Shown here: positions 45,772-54,359 of the stretch, piece by piece | Layout of the letters: every line of letters begins with the position of its first letter | Position numbering within the stretch: position 1 is the stretch's first letter | From: Nocardioides sp. zg-1230 | GTDB lineage: Bacteria > Actinomycetota > Actinomycetes > Propionibacteriales > Nocardioidaceae | DNA: 64,000 bases | Direction of reading: 5' to 3' | Assembly (NCBI RefSeq): GCF_013155335.1 | Contig: NZ_JABJQZ010000001.1 | Coordinates: 248,001 to 312,000, forward strand | Made by a program: the position numbers and the translations under genes | Notes under the pieces: generated by a model | What the model saw: only the letters and a program-made list of their open reading frames with translations | Told to the model about the DNA's origin: nothing | Databases searched by the model: none

Positions 45772-46144
45772 CGCCCGCGACGCCGCGCTGATGGGCGAGG
45801 GCGTACGACGTCGTGGCAGGATGCTTCCCGCCGCAGCACCACCGGTGACGTGGCACCGCCCCAGTAGACCGTGTTGATAACTCACATCCCCGCGTGAGAC
45901 GACTGCTCTCGCAAGAGCGTTGAACAGATGTCGCGAGAACTTGAACAACTCGACACATCGTGGCGCTGTCCCACGCACTCATCGCGGCACGTCAAGGCAC
46001 TCGATGTGCAACCAAGTGGGGCGATGGCTCGTGGGTACGAGGACCTGTCCGTGGCGTCTCTTAGATTTTTGACGCTCGATGCAACCTAGCCAACCTCTAC
46101 GGGGCTATTAGTGGCTAGGAGGACCTACCAAGGGCAGGAGGCGT
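45772..46144. other. Gene-free 373-bp stretch holding the left island end
   Basis: No gene is seen. The first 84 bases keep core composition, then the 12-bp repeat at 45856-45867, after which composition becomes less GC-rich. Inside the island end lie inverted repeats CTCAC/GTGAG (45881-45898) and GCTCT/AGAGC (about 45905-45918), two copies of TTGAACA (45920, 45941), and the dyad CCTAGCC/GGCTAGG (46085-46119) ahead of the sigma gene, suited to an operator. Confidence 0.6.
45856..45867. repeat. attL: 12-bp copy of the tRNA-Arg 5' end
   Basis: CCGCCCCAGTAG is identical to 54255-54266. It marks the change from core to island composition. It continues ACCGTGTTG rather than the tRNA D-arm sequence, so only the crossover core is duplicated. 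Confidence 0.7.
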
Positions 46145-46633
46145 ATGAGCAACTCAGGGAGTTTTGATGCCTTCTATGCCGCACGGGCCCCGAGGCTGGT
46201 GCGCAACATCTACTTGCGTACAGGCGATGCCACCCGTGCCGAGGACTGCGTGCAGGAAGCCTTTGTGCGGGCGTGGCGCAGGTGGGACCGGCTGGAGAAC
46301 GACGACCCGGTGGGGTGGGTGACCACGGTGGCCGTGGCGGCTAGCCATTCGGGATTGGCGGCGCACCCTGCGAGAAGCCGGGGCGCGGCTGGGTCTTGAA
46401 GCGAGGTCATGCGAGCACATCCGCCTCCGGATGAGTTGCTCCACCTACACCAAGCGTTGGCGAAGTTGGCTCCAGCACAACGCGACGTTCTGGTCCTCCA
46501 CTACTTCGAGGACTTGCCCGTGCGGGACGTCTCGGCACTCCTTGGGATGCCGGAAGGGACGGTCAAGTCCCACCTGTCTCGGGGCCGCGATGCCCTACGT
46601 GAAGCACTTGCTCTAGGAGGAGCAACCACATGA
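46145..46633 (+). pseudogene. ECF sigma factor, disrupted by two compensating frameshifts
   Basis: The 5' part encodes sigma region 2 (FDAFYAARAPRLVRNIYLRT, DCVQEAFVRAWRRWDRL) to WVTTVAV at about 46337. There an extra G shifts the frame; the next frame reads RLAIRDWRRTLREAGARLGL as expected. Near 46419 a missing base returns to the first frame, which encodes region 4 (PAQRDVLVLHYFEDLPVRDV, GMPEGTVKSHLSRGRDAL). As read, the first frame stops at 46399. GGCAGGAGGC precedes the ATG. It is followed by, and overlaps by four bases, an anti-sigma-like gene. Sequencing error is an alternative cause. Confidence 0.75.
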
Positions 46634-47300
46634 ACGACTTCGACCTGCTTGAGAATGCCCGCGACACGCAGTGGGAGCACGACCTCCTCCTCCCGCACGA
46701 AATCCGCCGACGTGGCAACCGTCGCGCAACAGTCCGCCGAGTATCAGGCGTTGTGGCCGTCGCCGCGACCATTGCCACCGCCTACGCCGTGGCCGGACCC
46801 ATGAGCCCAGCACTGAACAGGTGGCGACGGACCCGTCTACCAACGCCGTGAACCTCAACGGGGCAGAGTTCGACCTGCCGCCCGACTGGCAAGTTCTCAA
46901 CCGACCCTCCCCAGCCCAAGCGTGTGTCGGCGACGCCACCCAACCCACCACCAGTTGCCCCGTCCGCATCGCTGTCGCAGATGACCCAGAGACGGCAATG
47001 GTGAACGGACTGGACGTCGTACCCGACCTGATGAGCACCTGCCAAGCCAACGATCCGCAGTTTGTCGAGGTTACCCAAGACAGGCCGGGCACCAGCACGT
47101 ACTCGGGTCGGTGCACAGCCAGTAGCCCCGTCATGATGGCTTGGTCCTTCGACAATCGCACGGTCTACGTCCTCGCCACGGACGTGCGCTGGACCCCCGA
47201 CGGTGCGGACATTTTCAACACCGTCACCGTGCCTACACATTGGCCCCAAGCCCCAGCCCCCGCCGCGACCGAGTCTGCCACTCCAGCCAGTCCACGGTGA
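46630..47300 (+). pseudogene. Membrane anti-sigma-like protein, frameshifted
   Basis: The N-terminal part (MNDFDLLENARDTQWEHDLL, then a membrane segment VVAVAATIATAYAVAGP) runs to about 46800 and its frame stops at 46851. The continuation is found in another frame (STEQVATDPSTNAVNLNGAE onward) and ends at 47300 as a Cys-containing extracytoplasmic domain. One base appears lost near 46800. With the ATGA overlap to the sigma gene, a regulated sigma/anti-sigma pair is inferred. It resembles the intact membrane protein at 47863 in layout. Confidence 0.65.
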
Positions 47301-47368
47301 ACGAGTAGACCCAACTCACGGACGTTCACACGGGAGCCTAGTGACCGCATCTCGGTTGCGGGGTGGCC

Positions 47369-47866
47369 TCAGTCGTGCCGCTCCTGCACGAGCAACGTCT
47401 CAAGCGCCGACAGTCCTCGGCTGCTGTGGCTCTTGACCGTGCCGTCGCTGATGCCCAGTTCGGATGCCGTTTCTCGCACCGATAGGCCGAGCCAGTGTCG
47501 GAGCACCACCACTTTGCGCTGCTGCTCTGGGAGTGCTTGTAGCGCATCGAAGAGAGCAGAACGCTCCTCGATGGAAGGCGCGGCATCGGCGGCGCGCTCG
47601 GGCAGGACTTCGGTCGGCCACTCGCGCCGCCAACTTCTTCGCAAGTCGTCGATGTTCGTGCGAACCAATATCTGTCGGCAGTATGCCTCCTCGCCGCCTT
47701 CGTGGTGGATGCGAGGCCAAGCGACGTACAACTTGGCGAGGGCTGTTTGTAGCAGGTCTTCTGCATGGTGCCGGTCGCCAGTCAGCGCGTACGCGATGCG
47801 CCGCAGGTGGGGCAACCGACCAACTACGAAGTCGGTGAACTGGGCGTCGCGCTCGTCGCGATTCAC
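47369..47866 (-). CDS. ECF sigma factor (SigE-family type)
   Basis: The intact 165-residue sigma factor has region 2 (FTDFVVGRLPHLRRIAYALT, DRHHAEDLLQTALAKLYVAW), region 2.4 and linker (RTNIDDLRRSWRREWPTE) and region 4 (LPEQQRKVVVLRHWLGLSVR, ISDGTVKSHSSRGLSAL). It redirects RNA polymerase to a stress regulon. It lies downstream of, and overlaps by four bases, the membrane protein gene that is its probable regulator. It is convergent with the broken sigma module, separated by 68 bases. Confidence 0.88.
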   Translation of the reverse strand: MNRDERDAQFTDFVVGRLPHLRRIAYALTGDRHHAEDLLQTALAKLYVAWPRIHHEGGEEAYCRQILVRTNIDDLRRSWRREWPTEVLPERAADAAPSIEERSALFDALQALPEQQRKVVVLRHWLGLSVRETASELGISDGTVKSHSSRGLSALETLLVQERHD

Positions 47867-48444
47867 GGGGCTCCGAAATCGGTGATCACATCGGCGACAA
47901 ACTCCTCGAAGTCTGCATACCGCTGCCCTGGTGCCTCGACATTGAGTGCGACAGTCTCCTGCGCGAGCCAGTCAATCGTCACCCATCGCTCTGTCTCTGA
48001 GCGTTCCTGGACTACCTGTATCGCCCACCGCGCGGTCCATCCCGCTTCGCCGATTGACTCGATGCTGCGGTCTACTCGCCATCCGGGTCGAACAATGAAC
48101 GCGTCGCCACTCTCGGGCAACGTCACTGGCACTCCGTCCGGCATCCTCTCCAGTTCCTGCGGCGACGCGGTGCGAAAGCGAGAAGGTCTCGCTACATCCG
48201 ACGAGGCTGGCGACGCTCCCGGCCCCTCGCCAGCGACCACGGAGTCGCCCGACGAGTAGAGCGCTGGCAGCGCCGCCCATGTCATTGTGGCTGCAACCAA
48301 CGTGGCTGCCGCAGCAATCGTTGTGAACGTCCTACGGTGGCGTAGCGCCCGGTGACCTCGCGCCACGTAGCGCTCGACGGCGATGGGCTCCTCAATGGCA
48401 AACGAGCGATCGAGTTCGTGCCCCCAGTCGATTTCGGTCTTCAT
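47863..48444 (-). CDS. Membrane anti-sigma-like protein
   Basis: The 193-residue protein has a cytoplasmic N-terminus (MKTEIDWGHELDRSFAIEEP), one membrane segment at about 38-60 (TFTTIAAAATLVAATMTWAA) and an extracytoplasmic domain of about 130 residues of no recognised family. Overlap with the sigma gene by four bases suggests it holds or releases the sigma factor; no zinc anti-sigma HxxxCxxC motif is present. GGAGG precedes the ATG at 48444. The hairpin AGTGTCCC/GGGACACT (48463-48486) lies just upstream. Confidence 0.7.
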   Translation of the reverse strand: MKTEIDWGHELDRSFAIEEPIAVERYVARGHRALRHRRTFTTIAAAATLVAATMTWAALPALYSSGDSVVAGEGPGASPASSDVARPSRFRTASPQELERMPDGVPVTLPESGDAFIVRPGWRVDRSIESIGEAGWTARWAIQVVQERSETERWVTIDWLAQETVALNVEAPGQRYADFEEFVADVITDFGAP

Positions 48445-48873
48445 GACGTTCCTCCACTCACCAGTGTCCCTCGAAACAGGGACACTTAGAAACACGGGTG
48501 AACGGACCGAACGGTTGTCTTACCTCACCTACCCCTACCCCTGTGCAGCAGGACGCCCGAGGTTGGGAAAACGCCGTCCGCACATCCGCATGAGCGGATG
48601 GTCATGCCGAGAACAACCTCGTGAGATGCAGCCGCTAGAGCCACCAGAAATGTCTTGTCGGGCACCCGGTCCGCCTGATCACCGCGCACCGGGTGCCCGC
48701 TGGTAGACAGCATCCGGCCGACCGGGTGGGGTCCGCAAGCGCGGTCGGCGGGTCAGTTCAGTGACCAGCCGCGAGGACGAGGTTCTACGTCGTTGACCCG
48801 GTCGGGGAGAACCGGGAGCACCTCCACTTAGAACCGCCCCCGGACCGCTACCCGACACCCACCGCCTGTCGGA
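48445..48873. other. Gene-free 429-bp stretch with two hairpins
   Basis: No gene is convincing. AGTGTCCC (48463-48470) pairs with GGGACACT (48479-48486), which suits an operator or leader hairpin of the minus-strand sigma module. GGGCACCCGGT (48660-48670) pairs with ACCGGGTGCCC (48688-48698), an 11-bp perfect stem suited to a terminator for the small gene at 48874 on the minus strand, although it lies 176 bases beyond it. Confidence 0.5.
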
Positions 48874-49041
48874 CTAGGTGGCGAGGCGGCGACGTGCGAC
48901 GGGGCGGCGGCGTTCCTGTGCCATCTCGGCGCTGACCTCCCGCAAGGCGCGCTGGCGGGCTTGGTCGAAGTAGGTCTTGGGGTCCGCGAGCGCGCGCTCG
49001 ATGCGGTCGTCGCGGCGAGGCTTCGACAGTTTTTGTGCCAT
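48874..49041 (-). CDS. Small basic protein of unknown function
   Basis: I recognise no family. The 55-residue product (MAQKLSKPRRDDRIERALAD, then PKTYFDQARQRALREVSAEM and a basic C-terminus) looks like one long amphipathic helix. GGAAGGGG precedes the ATG at 49041. Similar short basic proteins accompany some actinobacterial antitoxin loci, but no toxin is adjacent. Confidence 0.55.
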   Translation of the reverse strand: MAQKLSKPRRDDRIERALADPKTYFDQARQRALREVSAEMAQERRRPVARRRLAT

Positions 49042-49150
49042 CACTGACCCCTTCCTGTGTGGTGTTCCACTTTGCCACATTGTCCTAGCGGCACTCTAGA
49101 CATCGGCTCCGACAACAAGTGGGTGAACTGCCTGCCGTTCGCCCGTGTCG

Positions 49151-49930
49151 TTACCGGCCTTGGGCGAGCGCGGCGGCGAGCGCTGAAGCCATCAGACCGA
49201 GCATGCGCAGATCATCGTTGGTGAGGTCACCGGCCTCCAACGCATCCAAGGTCAGCATCCCGAACGCGGTGTCGGCAGCGGTCACCGACACGGAGATGAA
49301 GGTCTTGTAGTCGCGCTTCTTGGAGGAGTCCCAGCCCGGTGGCGGCTCAGTGTCGATATCACGACAGAGCAGGTTCTCGCCAGCGAGCACCATGCCGATG
49401 GCAGCGTCGCCGGATGGGGTGTTCGGTTCGAAGATGGTGGAGGCGGACCCGCTACGTCCTGCGTCGAGCCGTGGCACCAGTCGCGGCGGCACGTCATCGG
49501 TCAGTTCGAACCAGCATGCCCGTGACCGGTCGGACCCGATGAGGTTCGATGCGGCGGTCAACACGAACGGGATGGCCTGGGCGATGAGCCGGTCACGGAC
49601 AGGCTTGCTGCGCTCGGCAGAGATGTCACCCAGTTGCCGAAGGATGGGGTCGAGTGCGTCGTTCACCGCTGCCCGCGTGTCGGCCCGCGCTTCCAGTTCG
49701 CGCACCTCAGCGGTCGTCTCGGCTTCCTTGGCTCGTAACTGACGAACCTGTGGGATGAGGAACGCGAAGGCGGTGAGCACAAACTGCAGACCGACGAGGA
49801 GCCAGACCCCTTTGCCGTCAACCTTCTGGGATGCGTAGGCAGCCCCGGGCGACCCGACCACGCACACGACGGTGATGACCAACCACAACCATGCGCGGTC
49901 TTGCTTCTCCGGTTCGGGCATGAGGCTCAC
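49151..49930 (-). CDS. Two-helix membrane protein with a GAF domain
   Basis: The 259-residue protein has membrane segments at about 14-33 and 43-60, a charged coiled coil (QLRAKEAETTAEVRELEARA), then a GAF-type domain at about 100-257 (AIPFVLTAASNLIGS, IGMVLAGENLLCRDI, TFISVSVTAADTAFGMLTLD). It has no kinase, cyclase or DNA-binding output, so it is a membrane sensor or adaptor whose partner is unclear. The GTG at 49930 or ATG at 49921 may be the start. The ligand is unknown. Confidence 0.7.
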   Translation of the reverse strand: MSLMPEPEKQDRAWLWLVITVVCVVGSPGAAYASQKVDGKGVWLLVGLQFVLTAFAFLIPQVRQLRAKEAETTAEVRELEARADTRAAVNDALDPILRQLGDISAERSKPVRDRLIAQAIPFVLTAASNLIGSDRSRACWFELTDDVPPRLVPRLDAGRSGSASTIFEPNTPSGDAAIGMVLAGENLLCRDIDTEPPPGWDSSKKRDYKTFISVSVTAADTAFGMLTLDALEAGDLTNDDLRMLGLMASALAAALAQGR

Positions 49931-50087
49931 TCAAAGAAGGCGGCTTGGACGTTGTTCGGCTCAGGGACGCCGGAACGCGGCTGACCGTACACGGGCGCAG
50001 GGACCCCGAGGAGCGCACACACAGAGACCAAGCGCACCCGTTAGAGACCGACTGCCAGACCAGCAGGTCCACGAACGGGGTGTCAGC

Positions 50088-50411
50088 ATGTGTCAGACGA
50101 AGGCGAAGGGCGGTCGACGGTGCGCTACCCGCCTTCAGAACGCGTCGTGGGCTGCTATGGAGTCGGTGCTGACCGCTGACTGCACTCGGGGCGCACGGGA
50201 AGCACGCGAAGCCGCGCGGGAGGCCGTCATTGCCTACGCCCGCACGGCTTCCGGTAGGAAAGCCCTCGTCGAGGTCTCCGAGCACCTCTATCGCAACCGT
50301 CGGTCCTACGTCGACGGGCTCTGGGCCGCGAAGTTTGTCTTGGAGTGCTGCTACGAGGCCGACGAACTAGAGAACCGACCCAGAACTGAACCGCTGCCCG
50401 GACCGGGCTGA
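50088..50411 (+). CDS. Unassigned protein with N-terminal CxxKAxGGRRC motif
   Basis: The 107-residue product starts MCQTKAKGGRRCATR; this Cys/Gly/Arg motif heads many uncharacterised actinobacterial and phage-like proteins and may bind zinc. The rest is helical (REAREAAREAVIAYARTASG, then YRNRRSYVDGLWAAKFVLEC). I do not know its function. It is convergent with the gene at 50421, nine bases apart. Confidence 0.6.
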   Translation: MCQTKAKGGRRCATRLQNASWAAMESVLTADCTRGAREAREAAREAVIAYARTASGRKALVEVSEHLYRNRRSYVDGLWAAKFVLECCYEADELENRPRTEPLPGPG

Positions 50412-50420
50412 CAGTCAGCG

Positions 50421-50975
50421 CTACTGCGACGAACCCCTGCGTGCCGGAGCACCGGCGCGCTTCTGCTTACGTTCAAGCCGTTTGACGATTCCGTCTTCCA
50501 TGTTTTCGCCGGGACGGAACATGTCGGTACTGAGGTCCGGGACTCGGATGACCTCGTCGATGACTTCGATGAGGCTCAACACGTCGTCCACGTAGGACCG
50601 GAGCCGTCCGAGTTCTTGCGAGTTCAACACGTCGCTCCAGTGGACATCCTTGAGTGCTTCATGAAACGCGTGGCTGGCGAGCAATGGTTTGAGGGCTGCT
50701 GCGCGGATGGCGGCTGCCCGGTCGCCGGGAACGACCTGTCCTTTAACGGTGACTCGTCCGGCCCGGAAGTCGGCAGGTACCAGCGACTCGACAGGCGGGT
50801 TGTGGCGTGCTCGGTAGGCGGCTTGGTTGCGAGCGTGCCTGGCCTTGCGGACGGCGTCTGCGCAGTCGCCGGGGTGGTAACGCCGGTTGCCGTGAGTCTC
50901 ACCGAGCGCCAACCCGCACGCCTCGCACGGACGCCTGCCAGTTGACGCAGATGCGGTCTCTCGATCACTCGTCAC
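50421..50975 (-). CDS. Unassigned protein with Cys/His zinc-finger-like N-terminus
   Basis: From a GTG at 50975 the product is 184 residues. RPCEACGLALGETHGNRRYH with a following C gives a CxxC...HxxxC arrangement like a zinc ribbon, then a basic helix (ARHARNQAAYRARH). The C-terminal half is helical and charged (SDVLNSQELGRLRSYVDDVL). It may be a small DNA-binding protein of the element; this is inference. The frame is open upstream to 51092. Confidence 0.6.
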   Translation of the reverse strand: MTSDRETASASTGRRPCEACGLALGETHGNRRYHPGDCADAVRKARHARNQAAYRARHNPPVESLVPADFRAGRVTVKGQVVPGDRAAAIRAAALKPLLASHAFHEALKDVHWSDVLNSQELGRLRSYVDDVLSLIEVIDEVIRVPDLSTDMFRPGENMEDGIVKRLERKQKRAGAPARRGSSQ

Positions 50976-51302
50976 GTGATTGGTATACAGGCTGCCAAGG
51001 CGTACCAGCGGGCATACACGCCTTACACCTGCACAACTCGTCCTGTTTCGAACAAAGGTTCGACACGGCTCACGATCACTGATACAAGTCACATATGCCT
51101 TGTTCTGTCGCCCTCACTGTTGGACCTGTCAGCAACAGACACGTCCACAAGGAGAGCAAGCATGAAGCGAGCAGGAGGCGACCCGCAGTACCAGCGGGTC
51201 CGGTGCAGACGCACCTAGCGAGCAGACCGGCGTCTCGAACCCAGCCCTAGACGTGGGGGGTTCGTAGAAGGGTCTGTTCCTGAGCCCCAAAGGGCCGAAC
51301 CC
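50976..51302. other. Leader region of the recombinase-fold/DDE operon
   Basis: The 327 bases separate divergent genes and hold an 18-codon reading frame (51162-51218), a stem GACCCGC/GCGGGTC inside it, and a second stem CGAACCC/GGGTTCG (51236-51264) between it and the recombinase-fold gene. A/T-rich stretches around 51000-51120 suit promoters, but none can be fixed. Confidence 0.5.
51162..51218 (+). CDS. Putative 18-residue leader peptide
   Basis: ATG follows a near-ideal AAGGAGAG site at five bases. The frame encodes MKRAGGDPQYQRVRCRRT and stops 84 bases before the recombinase-fold gene. A 7-bp stem (51179-51199) lies within it and another follows. Strong initiation plus downstream stems suggests translation-linked attenuation; this is inference. 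Confidence 0.45.
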   Translation: MKRAGGDPQYQRVRCRRT

Positions 51303-52415
51303 ATGTCCAGCAAGAACCCCAAGCAGTACGTCCGCCGCTCCTCCAACCGCCGCCGTATCGGTCTCCCCGGCCCCTACGACGCCTTCACCCTCACCACAGG
51401 TCTCAAGGCACCCGGCCTCATCGCCGTCGCCGAAGCCCTCACGCTCGTCCTCACCGCCTGGCGCGCCAACACGGTCGAAGTTGGCTTCACCGACGCCACG
51501 CTGCGCCGCTACGAACACAACCTCGTCCGGTTCGTCGCCTACGTAACCGCCATGGGGTACCCGACCCTCGCGGACCTCGACGCGACCATCTGCGCTGACT
51601 GGGTGCACGCTCGACCCACCGGCAAGATGTGGTCCTCCAACACCACCGGTCAGCCCGCCTACGGCACTCAGGCGAACCGCCGTACCTCGCTCATCAACTT
51701 CTTCGCCACCTGCCACCACCTCGGCTTGTGGGACCAGAACCCCGGCGAGAAGGTCACCACTCACGGACGGTCCGTCAACCGCGTCCGCCCCCTCACCCCT
51801 GCCGAGGCGCAGCGGGTCATGGACCGTGCCGCCTACCGAGCACGCGAGTCTAAGTTGCCCGCAGTGGTCGCTCTGGCGTTCGCCGGGGCGACCGTCACTG
51901 AGATTCCGCAGGTGCAGGTCAACGACGTACACCTCGCCGAGGGGGTGGTGTGGCTGCCCGGACTGGGACGCCGCAACCTCCCTCGCTGGGTCGCACTCGA
52001 CAAATGGCAGACCGAGGCCCTCACGGCACGCATCAACTACCTCGCCCGTGCCCACCGCTCCGCCGACCTCACCGGACTCTCGCTTGCCCGTCGCGACCGG
52101 GTTGCTGACCAAGACCCCACCAAGGTCGCGATGGCCACTAACGGCATGCTGTGGCGCGCCCTCACCAAGGCCGGGCTCAGCCCGGATGACGGCGTCCGCC
52201 CCACCTCCATCCACGAGTACGTCGCCAACCGCGTCTACCGCGAGACCGGCTCAATGGAGGCTGTCGCTGTCACCTGTGGACTGCGTTCGCTGGACGCCGC
52301 CGCTCGCCTCATCACGGTCGACTGGCGCGCAAACTACGAAGTCTCAGCACCGGATGGTGCGACCGGCACCAACCGCTACGACCTGACCGGCACCCAGCAG
52401 GGCGGGGTGCTCTGA
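51303..52415 (+). CDS. Tyrosine-recombinase-fold protein lacking the catalytic residues
   Basis: Residues 40-150 form a typical core-binding (SAM-like) domain (TDATLRRYEHNLVRFVAYVT, ANRRTSLINFFATCHHLGLW). Residues 160-345 follow the catalytic fold, starting VRPLTPAEAQRVMDRAAYRA. By hand alignment the first Arg (usual GLRxxEL) is replaced in AFAGATVTEIPQV, the HxxR box is TSIH, the next GH is GL (CGLRSL), and the Tyr is replaced in AAARLIT. It should bind DNA without cutting it. The stop overlaps the DDE gene start by one base, so the two are coupled. Confidence 0.72.
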   Translation: MSSKNPKQYVRRSSNRRRIGLPGPYDAFTLTTGLKAPGLIAVAEALTLVLTAWRANTVEVGFTDATLRRYEHNLVRFVAYVTAMGYPTLADLDATICADWVHARPTGKMWSSNTTGQPAYGTQANRRTSLINFFATCHHLGLWDQNPGEKVTTHGRSVNRVRPLTPAEAQRVMDRAAYRARESKLPAVVALAFAGATVTEIPQVQVNDVHLAEGVVWLPGLGRRNLPRWVALDKWQTEALTARINYLARAHRSADLTGLSLARRDRVADQDPTKVAMATNGMLWRALTKAGLSPDDGVRPTSIHEYVANRVYRETGSMEAVAVTCGLRSLDAAARLITVDWRANYEVSAPDGATGTNRYDLTGTQQGGVL

Positions 52416-54028
52416 TGGGCAAGGCCCACCGCATCCGCGAGGACGCCGCCCGCACCGACCGGCTCGTTCGCCGCTACAAGCAAGACCAGTCCCGCGCGGC
52501 ACTGGTCGCCATCCTCGACGAGACCATCGCCGAGCAGCGCGCCCGTCGTCTCGGCGACATCGGCAAACTGCTCGCAGCAGCCACCGACCCGTGGCTCCTC
52601 AAGCGCGCTGCCGTCCTCGACGACACCACGACCCGTACCACCGGACGTCCCTGCCTTTACCCCAACTGGGCGCTCCTGCTGTTCGGGCAGGCCATCGACA
52701 TCTATGGCTCCGCGCTCTACACCGACATCAACCTCGGCGACCACAACGTTTGGGCGCTGGTCGTCAACGCCGTTCGTGACGTGCATGGCGACGAGGTCGC
52801 CGCCAAACTCCCCGCGACCGGACCGACGGTGAACCACTGGAACCATTTCCAGCGCAAGAGCAAGCAGCGCGGTTGGGTGCAGAAACTCCGCGTCGCCCAC
52901 CGCCGCGCCGCTACCGAGCAGGCCATCGCCATGGGCATGTTCGAACCGGGCAACGCTTTCCAAGTCGCCAAGCCCACCCGCGAGGTCTGCATCACCCTCG
53001 ACGGCAAGGTCTCCACCTCCCCATCCAAGTACGAGCCCGGCACCGAGTACGTAAACAAGACCACCGGTGAAATCCGCGTCCGACGGGCCGACGACAACAC
53101 CGACCTATGGCCCGAGGCTGGTAGCCCGGTCATCCCTGAGGGTTCCTCCGCTGAGGAGATTGCCAAGTACCGGGGCGACAAGACCCACCGCTACGAGTGG
53201 GGCGTCAAGGGCACCTACGCTTGGGCGCGTCTTGTCCAGTCCGGCACCCGCATCTGCCTCGACGTGGAAACCATGACCCCCTCCGAACACGACGAGGGCC
53301 GCGCCATCGTCGACATCGTCAACTCCCTTGCCGACCTGCTCCCCGGCCTCCAAACGGTCGTCGTCGACGGCATCCTGCGCCACAAGCACATCGACCCACT
53401 GATGCGACGCGGCCTCATGGTCGTCAACAAGCCCGCCCAAGGTCCCAAGAAGTCGCGCTCCACCGTCAAGGTCGGCGACCGGTACGAGAAGTCTCACCAC
53501 GTCGGCACCTATGAGAAGACCGGCAAGCACGGCACCTGCCGCCACCGTTTCTACGGCATCGGCGGAGCCGTCTACGAAGCGACCGCCAACGACCAAGGCA
53601 CCGAAGTTCAAACCCTGCTCAAGCAGCGCACCATCCGTCGCCCCGGCGCGAAGAACGAGTTCAACTGGTACCGGAGCATCGACATCGACTGCGCCCGCTG
53701 CGGCGGCGTCACGGGCCACTCCGTACCTCTCGTCGCGCAGGACGACGACGGCTTTCTCCGCTCCGAGTACCTGCGGCAAATGGCCATCACTGACGGCACC
53801 TTCGCGCAGACCTACGGCTTCCGCCCTGACGCCGAATCCGGCAACAACGGCATCGAACAAGCCTGGTACCTCAAGCGCATGCCCGCCTACGGACACCACA
53901 ACCAGTCCTTGCGCATGCTCCTGCACGCCGCCCAAATCAACGCCGAGGCATGGCACATCCACGCCGGACGTCTCGCCCACCACGACCTGCTCCCCGACCC
54001 CGAACCCACGAAGCAGGTCGCCGCCTAG
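52415..54028 (+). CDS. DDE-type transposase-like protein with zinc-ribbon-like insertion
   Basis: The 537-residue protein is unlike common IS transposases end to end, but a DDE triad can be read: Asp196 (VCITLDGKVS), Asp318 (TVVVDGILRHKHID) and Glu481 (GNNGIEQAWYLKR, with the Lys that often follows). Between the last two lies an insertion with basic/His/Cys segments and CARCGGVTGH, a zinc-ribbon-like motif. The N-terminal 190 residues are helical and basic. It is coupled to the recombinase-fold gene and lies 227 bases from attR. Transposition or excision is inferred. Confidence 0.6.
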   Translation: MGKAHRIREDAARTDRLVRRYKQDQSRAALVAILDETIAEQRARRLGDIGKLLAAATDPWLLKRAAVLDDTTTRTTGRPCLYPNWALLLFGQAIDIYGSALYTDINLGDHNVWALVVNAVRDVHGDEVAAKLPATGPTVNHWNHFQRKSKQRGWVQKLRVAHRRAATEQAIAMGMFEPGNAFQVAKPTREVCITLDGKVSTSPSKYEPGTEYVNKTTGEIRVRRADDNTDLWPEAGSPVIPEGSSAEEIAKYRGDKTHRYEWGVKGTYAWARLVQSGTRICLDVETMTPSEHDEGRAIVDIVNSLADLLPGLQTVVVDGILRHKHIDPLMRRGLMVVNKPAQGPKKSRSTVKVGDRYEKSHHVGTYEKTGKHGTCRHRFYGIGGAVYEATANDQGTEVQTLLKQRTIRRPGAKNEFNWYRSIDIDCARCGGVTGHSVPLVAQDDDGFLRSEYLRQMAITDGTFAQTYGFRPDAESGNNGIEQAWYLKRMPAYGHHNQSLRMLLHAAQINAEAWHIHAGRLAHHDLLPDPEPTKQVAA

Positions 54029-54061
54029 AACACAACAGGCACCGCAACAGAACAGCACCAC

Positions 54062-54097
54062 CTCGTACCCCGCTGGCCTCGCCACGCGGGGCACGAG
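54062..54097 (+). terminator. Hairpin after the DDE gene
   Basis: CTCGT-A-CCCCGC pairs with GCGGGG-C-ACGAG, with one internal mismatch and an inner TGG/CCA pairing, 34 bases after the stop. It is the probable operon terminator. Confidence 0.7.
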
Positions 54098-54254
54098 TGC
54101 TGCCCAGACCAACAACAGAGCCCGTCGCACCTTTGGTCGACCATTGCGCTGACGCCGCGCATCCGCAGCGTGAGGCCGGAAACTGGTCCCGCAAGCCGCC
54201 GTGGCAAGATGCCGACCGACGTGTAACGCTTTTCAACACGAATGTGCACACGTC

Positions 54255-54266
54255 CCGCCCCAGTAG
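54255..54266. repeat. attR: 12-bp repeat covering the tRNA-Arg 5' end
   Basis: It is identical to 45856-45867. It spans two bases upstream of tRNA-Arg and its first ten bases. Insertion leaves the tRNA body intact but replaces everything upstream of position -2, including the native promoter. Confidence 0.7.
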
Positions 54267-54329
54267 CTCAGTGGATAGAGCAGCCGCCTCCTAAGCGAAA
54301 GGTCGCAAGTTCGACTCTTGCCTGGGGCA
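54257..54329 (+). tRNA. tRNA-Arg (anticodon CCT)
   Basis: The acceptor GCCCCAG pairs fully with CTGGGGC, the D stem is GCTC/GAGC, the anticodon loop CTCCTAA gives CCT (reads AGG), and the T arm GCAAG/CTTGC is perfect. CCA is not encoded. The anticodon stem is weak: three C-G pairs next to the loop but G-A and C-A at its base. It is the integration site of the island. Confidence 0.85.
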
Positions 54330-54359
54330 CCGACCGACCGGGCGTCATCGGGCCGTCGC

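Follow-up and report, generated by a model that had tools for sequence, protein, structure and literature searches.

A DDE transposase and an inactive tyrosine-recombinase-fold partner in an actinobacterial transposon that probably targets tRNA 5' ends

Introduction

Genomic islands and integrative and conjugative elements (ICEs) that integrate at tRNA genes usually insert into the 3' half of the gene by covalent tyrosine chemistry, and tyrosine integrases tend naturally toward tRNA genes. In Tn6022-type Tn7-like transposons, an inactivated tyrosine-recombinase-like protein, TnsF, is the target selector, the target being comM, and removal of TnsF impaired transposition into comM (Faure et al. 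2023, PMC10293859). Members of the IS4 family duplicate short stretches of target DNA, given as 9 bp for IS10, 8–9 bp for IS50 and 10–13 bp for IS4 (PMC2266710). Here we describe an element in 64,000 nucleotides of Nocardioides sp. zg-1230 (contig NZ_JABJQZ010000001.1, positions 248,001 to 312,000; this whole stretch is called the window below), in which a transposase gene and a recombinase-fold gene lie just ahead of a tRNA-Arg gene. With a probability of about 0.75, we read it as a cargo-carrying transposon that homes to tRNA 5' ends by means of a DDE transposase and an inactive recombinase that probably selects the target.

Results and discussion

A coupled transposase and recombinase-fold pair

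A first-pass annotation of this DNA had flagged the downstream protein of the pair as DDE-like but of no known family, with D196, D318 and E481 as a candidate triad and a CxxC insertion, and had proposed a coupled two-gene mobilization module beside a tRNA attachment (att) site. Modeled with AlphaFold2 from an 18-row alignment (predicted local distance difference test [pLDDT] 81.9, predicted template modeling score [pTM] 0.80), this protein has an RNase H-like order of elements, with a predicted beta-rich insertion (~350–438) ahead of the last catalytic helix. Tn5 transposase was the only Foldseek match in the PDB at E <= 0.001 (E 1.3e-06) and also led the structural comparison (Z 17.8, root-mean-square deviation [rmsd] 4.3, 290 residues aligned), followed by piggyBac (Z 11.4), in keeping with the RNase H fold for which the annotation had recommended a search. 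D196 and D318 stand where they had been placed and, like R470 and E474, are invariant in all 40 aligned relatives; the third catalytic residue had been misassigned, and is E474 rather than E481, whose column holds D in 31, K in 6, E in 2 and Q in 1 of the sequences. In the window protein, Y467, R470 and E474 are followed by E481 at the K position of the IS4-type Y-(2)-R-(3)-E-(6)-K signature, which is incomplete in these transposases (Y in 31, R in 40, E in 40 and K in 6 of 40, with D in 31 at the K position). The CxxC insertion did not hold up as a family feature, the C426 column being Cys in 33 of 40 and the C429 column unconserved, and a zinc site there was dropped as not family-wide.

The verdict of no known family survives for sequence searches, since Pfam, NCBIfam, PHROG, PADLOC and PDB sequence searches gave no match for the window protein; it fails for the fold, which is of the known Tn5/IS4 type. 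PHROGs returned nothing for three transposases searched, and the DDE_Tnp_1 profile (PF01609) matched weakly in four of nine A1 members (E up to 5, best 0.0072) and did not match the window protein. Two matches of a profile search against the PDB, both to connexins, were set aside as chance. By its predicted structure and aligned residues, the flagged protein is a DDE transposase of Tn5/IS4-type fold, and we infer its DDE chemistry from that fold, the invariant residues and an IS10/IS50-like duplication length.

The transposase ATG shares one base with the TGA that ends the recombinase-fold gene upstream. Among 99 full-length transposase open reading frames (ORFs), 46 distinct copies were distinguished by their last 300 residues, with repeat fetches and identical copies dropped, and in 42 of these a recombinase-fold gene lies directly upstream on the same strand, which bears out the proposed two-gene module. 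Few other neighbor families recur around the pair in 28 loci compared, a small helix-turn-helix (HTH) gene being found in six.

Modeled from a 17-row alignment (pLDDT 81.5, pTM 0.66), the partner protein matched XerA (Z 19.8, but with an rmsd of 13.5), XerH (16.9), lambda Int (16.5) and wild-type Cre (15.1) over 264–290 residues, and the integrase-like phage proteins SroF, MrpR and YopR were also among its structural matches; its sequence matches stayed below cut-off (Pfam Phage_integrase 0.0078, NCBIfam XerD 1.5e-08). The Arg I column is R in only 6 of 40 partners, and the expected position of the nucleophilic Tyr is I, L or V in all 17 rows of the modeling alignment, from which alone Arg II and Tyr were judged, an alignment with three true integrases having left the Tyr column gapped and the Arg II column misaligned. 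A Tyr two residues past the expected position occurs in 14 of 40 partners, is not conserved and is absent from the window protein. The tail, SLD...W, is conserved (SLD in 40 of 40), and no CxxC pair occurs in the 370-residue translation. From model and alignment, the partner is a tyrosine-recombinase fold lacking the active-site set, with neither Arg I nor the nucleophilic Tyr conserved. We consider it very probable that the pair is the mobility module of a transposon.

The same structural matches lend something to an alternative in which the transposon is unchanged and the transposase alone picks the tRNA site, with the partner acting as an end-binding accessory or as a transcriptional repressor of the pair in the manner of an SPbeta-type phage regulator. 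SroF and MrpR are titled repressor and master regulator in their PDB entries, and these proteins and YopR, which we take to be SPbeta-type phage regulators, have a similar fold and a regulatory role; several elements carry a divergently oriented HTH gene, which makes regulation of the module plausible. These phage proteins have no transposase partner. To our knowledge, no transposase of the IS4/Tn5 type homes to one gene, and neither translational coupling nor the co-conservation seen in 42 of 46 copies would be required of a regulator, a point that counts against this alternative while leaving it some room; on balance we find it unlikely.

Borders and target duplications

Empty tRNA-Arg sites in two related genomes (G007 and G012) align with the window up to the tRNA and resume leftward from window position 45867, 8.4 kb away. 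The intervening block has a GC content of 0.648 vs 0.724 in the remaining window, and the flanking repeat, CCGCCCCAGTAG, occurs just twice in the 124 kb examined; with this repeat exceeding 9 bp, the ends can be placed only to within 3 bp. The true ends were located by this boundary comparison and not by an inverted-repeat search. A simple insertion sequence hugging both genes was rejected: there is a 22-nt inverted pair at 51101/54033, but no flank scored above shuffles in 20 loci (one flank being too short).

Relatives carry larger elements of 22–44 kb, with duplications of ~9 bp that vary among tRNA sites, a plasmid and another site. The element of Mycobacterium kansasii plasmid pMK12478 measures 44.1 kb (139483–144951 plus 1–38665), and a plasmid backbone with the empty site (NZ_CP015273.1 and others) lacks the insert; matches to its left and right sides overlap by 10 bp, CCGTCCCACC, and the duplication is (C)CGTCCCACC. 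The pMK12478 DNA also lies beside a tRNA-Arg gene on a chromosomal contig, G655:C13, with 38,667 bp at 99.99% and, up to the contig end, 2,859 bp at 100%, ~41.5 kb in all. Further duplications are CCGCCCTCG in G1039 (element of 32.8 kb), CCGCCCCCG in G1088 (31.5 kb), CGCCTCCGT in G717 (22.7 kb), GGCCTCCGT in G906 (32.3 kb) and GGTCAGAG(G) in G1176, whose 29.3-kb element is at a non-tRNA site. The duplicated stretch is thus 9–10 bp in pMK12478, G1039, G717, G906 and G1088, and the 12-bp repeat of the window contains it.

Read inward, the element ends begin GGGAC/GGGCC; in G717 both start GGGCCTTGCGTA, as matching inverted ends. A motif (ACCTGACKAAAA; CGTGTTGAWAA) lies near both ends, ~11–14 bp deeper on the right, in pMK12478, G1039, G1176 and the window. 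Tandem arrays hold a single 9-bp tRNA copy between the right end of one element and the left end of the next, at two junctions in G1109 and one each in G912 and G920, and in G1131 a remnant of another right end precedes the left end. In the DNA fetched, the left end was not found for two copies in G1185 and for the copy in G1157.

These borders bear directly on the possibility of a conventional tRNA-associated integrative element, moved by tyrosine site-specific recombination, with the repeats as attL and attR and the DDE protein as a passenger. The tRNA location, the direct repeats at the borders and the recombinase fold would fit such an element, and true integrase genes do lie near a few pairs (L057, L112). 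It is already contradicted, however, because the 9–10-bp duplications depend on the target whereas att cores are common to all products, because Arg I and Tyr are not conserved in the partner, because insertion is at the tRNA 5' end, and because the invariant DDE residues indicate selection on the transposase; we give it very little credence. The att site of the first-pass annotation is no classical 3'-end integrase site and is better described as a 5'-end transposition target of which ~9 bp are duplicated.

tRNA genes as the preferred target

A tRNA gene on the same strand starts 123–254 bp past the transposase stop (229 bp in the window) in 29 of the 46 copies: Arg-CCT in 24, Lys-TTT in 2, and Arg-TCT, Phe-GAA and Gly-CCC in one each. 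For comparison, in 30 of the 43 loci concerned such a tRNA gene lies within 400 bp for 3 of 479 other ORFs (300 codons or longer), a difference with a Fisher p of 2e-32 that, the copies being related, overstates their independence. When identical proteins were merged, plasmid copy L183 was retained in place of L107, its twin beside a tRNA, and the count of 29 is therefore not inflated by these two. At 22 tRNA loci compared, three of which (L066, L112 and L113) have broken transposase genes and stand outside the 46, the element end, usually ...CCC, lies 0–3 nt from the tRNA. By eye, TAGCTCA, a motif shared by many tRNAs, is found within the first 15 nt of the tRNA at all 22.

Some of the copies without a downstream tRNA have an evident context. 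Three are on or beside plasmid DNA, namely L024 and L183, which are on plasmids, and L165, whose flank is that of plasmid NZ_CP020813.1 (99.9% across 3,027 bp); L155 and L158 are displaced tandem copies; and L093 and one copy in L095 have just 98 and 187 bp of flank.

Proposed mechanism and comparison with known systems

We propose that the Tn5/IS4-type RNase H/DDE enzyme, with D196, D318 and E474, would cut the element out at its ends and join it to the target with a stagger of ~9 bp, the repair of which would leave these bases duplicated and the tRNA gene intact. The recombinase-fold protein would bind the tRNA gene in its 5' part and recruit the transposase there, and landing on plasmids, apparent from the sequences above, would provide a route of transfer. 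At the level of sequence comparison, mobility of the block, a target-varying duplication of ~9 bp, a strong preference for tRNA 5' ends, the use of plasmids and tandem accumulation are demonstrated. Operon coupling, the tendency of tyrosine integrases toward tRNA genes and the TnsF precedent together incline us, with some reservation, to assign target selection to the inactive recombinase.

Several points weigh against this proposal. We infer target choice by the partner from fold, linkage and analogy; and the distance matrices of transposase and partner correlate strongly (r 0.89 for 40 aligned pairs; 0 of 999 permutations), a co-divergence that is expected from gene linkage alone and is no proof of contact. 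Seventeen of the 46 copies have no downstream tRNA, and ten of these are without explanation (two each in L096 and L114, one in L095, and L124, L125, L164, L169 and L171); when plasmids were searched with the two flanking sequences, L169 yielded a single weak match and L171 no match. The 46 copies are phylogenetically related, the 10-bp overlap in pMK12478 is read as 9 solely by the symmetry of the ends, and the left end of the window element (ACCGTG... or GACCGTG...) is no clean copy of its right end (GGGACGTG).

Among described systems, Tn6022 is alike in that an inactive tyrosine-recombinase-like protein accompanies a DDE transposon homing to a conserved host gene, and TnsF has been likened to XerH, also a top match of the partner here. 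The machinery differs: Tn6022 uses TnsA, TnsB, TnsC and TniQ, whereas we find a single Tn5/IS4-type transposase; TnsF bears zinc fingers at its N terminus and an incomplete catalytic (CAT) domain, whereas the partner has a nearly complete core-binding (CB) and CAT fold; and the target is comM in the one case and tRNA genes in the other (PMC10293859). Of the features of a TnsF-type selector, the fold without an active site is found here, and the zinc fingers (no CxxC pair in the partner) and a TniQ partner (no match among the window-element ORFs scanned) are not. No Pfam match to TnsB, TnsC or TniQ was obtained among 10 ORFs of the window element scanned, and the gene table of pMK12478, itself incomplete, names none in the element; because no TnsC or TniQ was found among the window-element ORFs, we do not file the element as Tn7-like.

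Fold, DDE residues, Y-(2)-R-(3)-E spacing and duplication length resemble those of the IS4 family, in particular the IS10 and IS50 subgroups. Unlike that family as described (PMC2266710), the present elements of 8–44 kb carry cargo, have a companion gene and prefer tRNA genes; their ends are GGG, in contrast to the C-ends (5'-CA or 5'-CT) of most IS4 subgroups listed, and the Lys of YREK is usually Asp. It is because the K of YREK and the C-ends are lacking that we do not assign the element to IS4. Islands and ICEs with tyrosine integrases likewise have tRNA genes as hot spots and direct repeats at their flanks.

By analogy, the element would operate as a Tn5-type transposon guided by a selector akin to TnsF. 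Its kinds of component are known, and the combined machine and its tRNA homing appeared to be undescribed: the element was not recognized in a literature search that covered few subscription journals and preprints and included PMC10293859, PMC2266710 and PMC5322544. We would go slightly beyond an even wager in regarding these elements as a separate superfamily of Actinomycetota, in which a Tn5-type transposase has joined with a captured integrase that lost its chemistry and kept its recognition of tRNA genes, giving a homing transposon of two proteins that bears as much as 44 kb of cargo, moves back and forth between plasmids and tRNA genes, and forms tandem islands without a Tn7-type ATPase.

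Such an element provides a mechanism for islands linked to tRNA genes but lacking an active integrase. It also suggests that a transposase with no relation to the Tn7 machinery can recruit an inactive tyrosine recombinase to select its target. Placement of large cargo by two proteins at a fixed position ahead of an undisrupted tRNA gene may also provide a simpler model, and perhaps tool, for targeted integration than Tn7 or CRISPR-associated transposons (CAST), and makes the ATPase-free steering of a cut-and-paste transposase by a target selector directly testable.

Distribution

Counting the query's own genome, profile searches found matches in 27 of 396 phylum-wide genomes and in 21 of 394 genomes of the class, and single-protein searches in 16 of 396 genomes, in 2 of 96 near relatives, and in 25 of 199 and 21 of 198 genomes of two genera; many of the profile matches are partial or frame-shifted remnants. 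Matches were present in 3 of 72,556 plasmid records and in none of 50,697 phage records, and viral contigs gave no confirmed match. A phage origin was rejected on the phage-record and viral-contig results and the PHROGs null. PADLOC returned nothing for six window proteins, so no defense system was called.

Cargo and neighboring features

The features of the window element are collected in Table 1. The interrupted sigma-factor gene is probably a pseudogene.

Table 1. Coordinates of the transposon, its genes, ends and target within the window
Feature	Position	Strand	Basis
Left direct repeat, 12 bp, CCGCCCCAGTAG, = tRNA-Arg positions -2 to +10; outer border	45856–45867	.	Exact match to right copy
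Transposon, ~8.4 kb	45868–54254	+	Empty sites in relatives, flanking repeat
Left-end motif CGTGTTGATAA, 2 bp inside border	45870–45880	+	Similar motif at other left ends
Cargo: extracytoplasmic function (ECF) sigma-factor gene, stop codon between region 2 and region 4	46145–46633	+	Pfam Sigma70_r2, Sigma70_r4_2; ORFs 46145–46399, 46409–46633
Cargo: second ECF sigma-factor gene; neighboring gene with no Pfam match	47369–48495	-	Pfam, ORFs
Cargo: GAF-domain protein	49151–49930	-	Pfam GAF_2 8.9e-08
Small gene divergent from the pair, without Pfam match	50421–51092	-	ORF, Pfam
Partner with tyrosine-recombinase fold, 370 aa, catalytic residues absent, proposed target selector	51303–52415	+	Structure matches, family alignment
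DDE transposase, 537 aa, predicted Tn5/IS4-like fold	52415–54028	+	ORF, predicted structure, alignment
Putative catalytic Asp D196, codon GAC	53000–53002	+	40/40 aligned
Putative catalytic Asp D318, codon GAC	53366–53368	+	40/40 aligned
Putative catalytic Glu E474, codon GAA (Y467-R470-E474 signature)	53834–53836	+	40/40 aligned
Right end, inward reading GGGACGTG..., motif CGTGTTGAAAA at 54230–54240	54230–54256	-	End comparison
Right direct repeat, 12 bp, CCGCCCCAGTAG, holding tRNA nucleotides 1–10	54255–54266	.	Sequence
tRNA-Arg(CCT), target gene, intact after insertion	54257–54331	+	ARAGORN

Among relatives, the pMK12478 element (L183, L220) carries MCE-family genes, redox enzymes and sigma factors. 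Mycobacterial elements (stretches L109:2886–5565 and L025:2218–4910) have a common core of ~5.4 kb, in which the genes divergent from the pair encode an HTH protein and others without a clear Pfam match.

Longer, divergent transposase paralogs lie near a normal pair in three loci (L114:12685–16470, L096:12259–13788 and L095:188–2002), with no tRNA found beside them; in L114 the paralog is followed by a second recombinase-fold gene. These paralogs are possibly a second targeting module.

On the 3' side of the window tRNA, relatives such as L227 regain collinearity only 11 kb past the tRNA (54332 to ~65348, extending beyond the window), so from sequence comparison a second insertion seems present there; a second copy of the tRNA 3' end for this 11-kb insertion was not found in the DNA searched. 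Partial copies of the 3' part of this tRNA-Arg occur within ~15 kb of the intact gene in four other genomes (G018:C3, G016:C50, G010:C1 and G008:C15). Such copies fit classical integrase islands, and the tRNA-Arg gene may be attacked from both sides.

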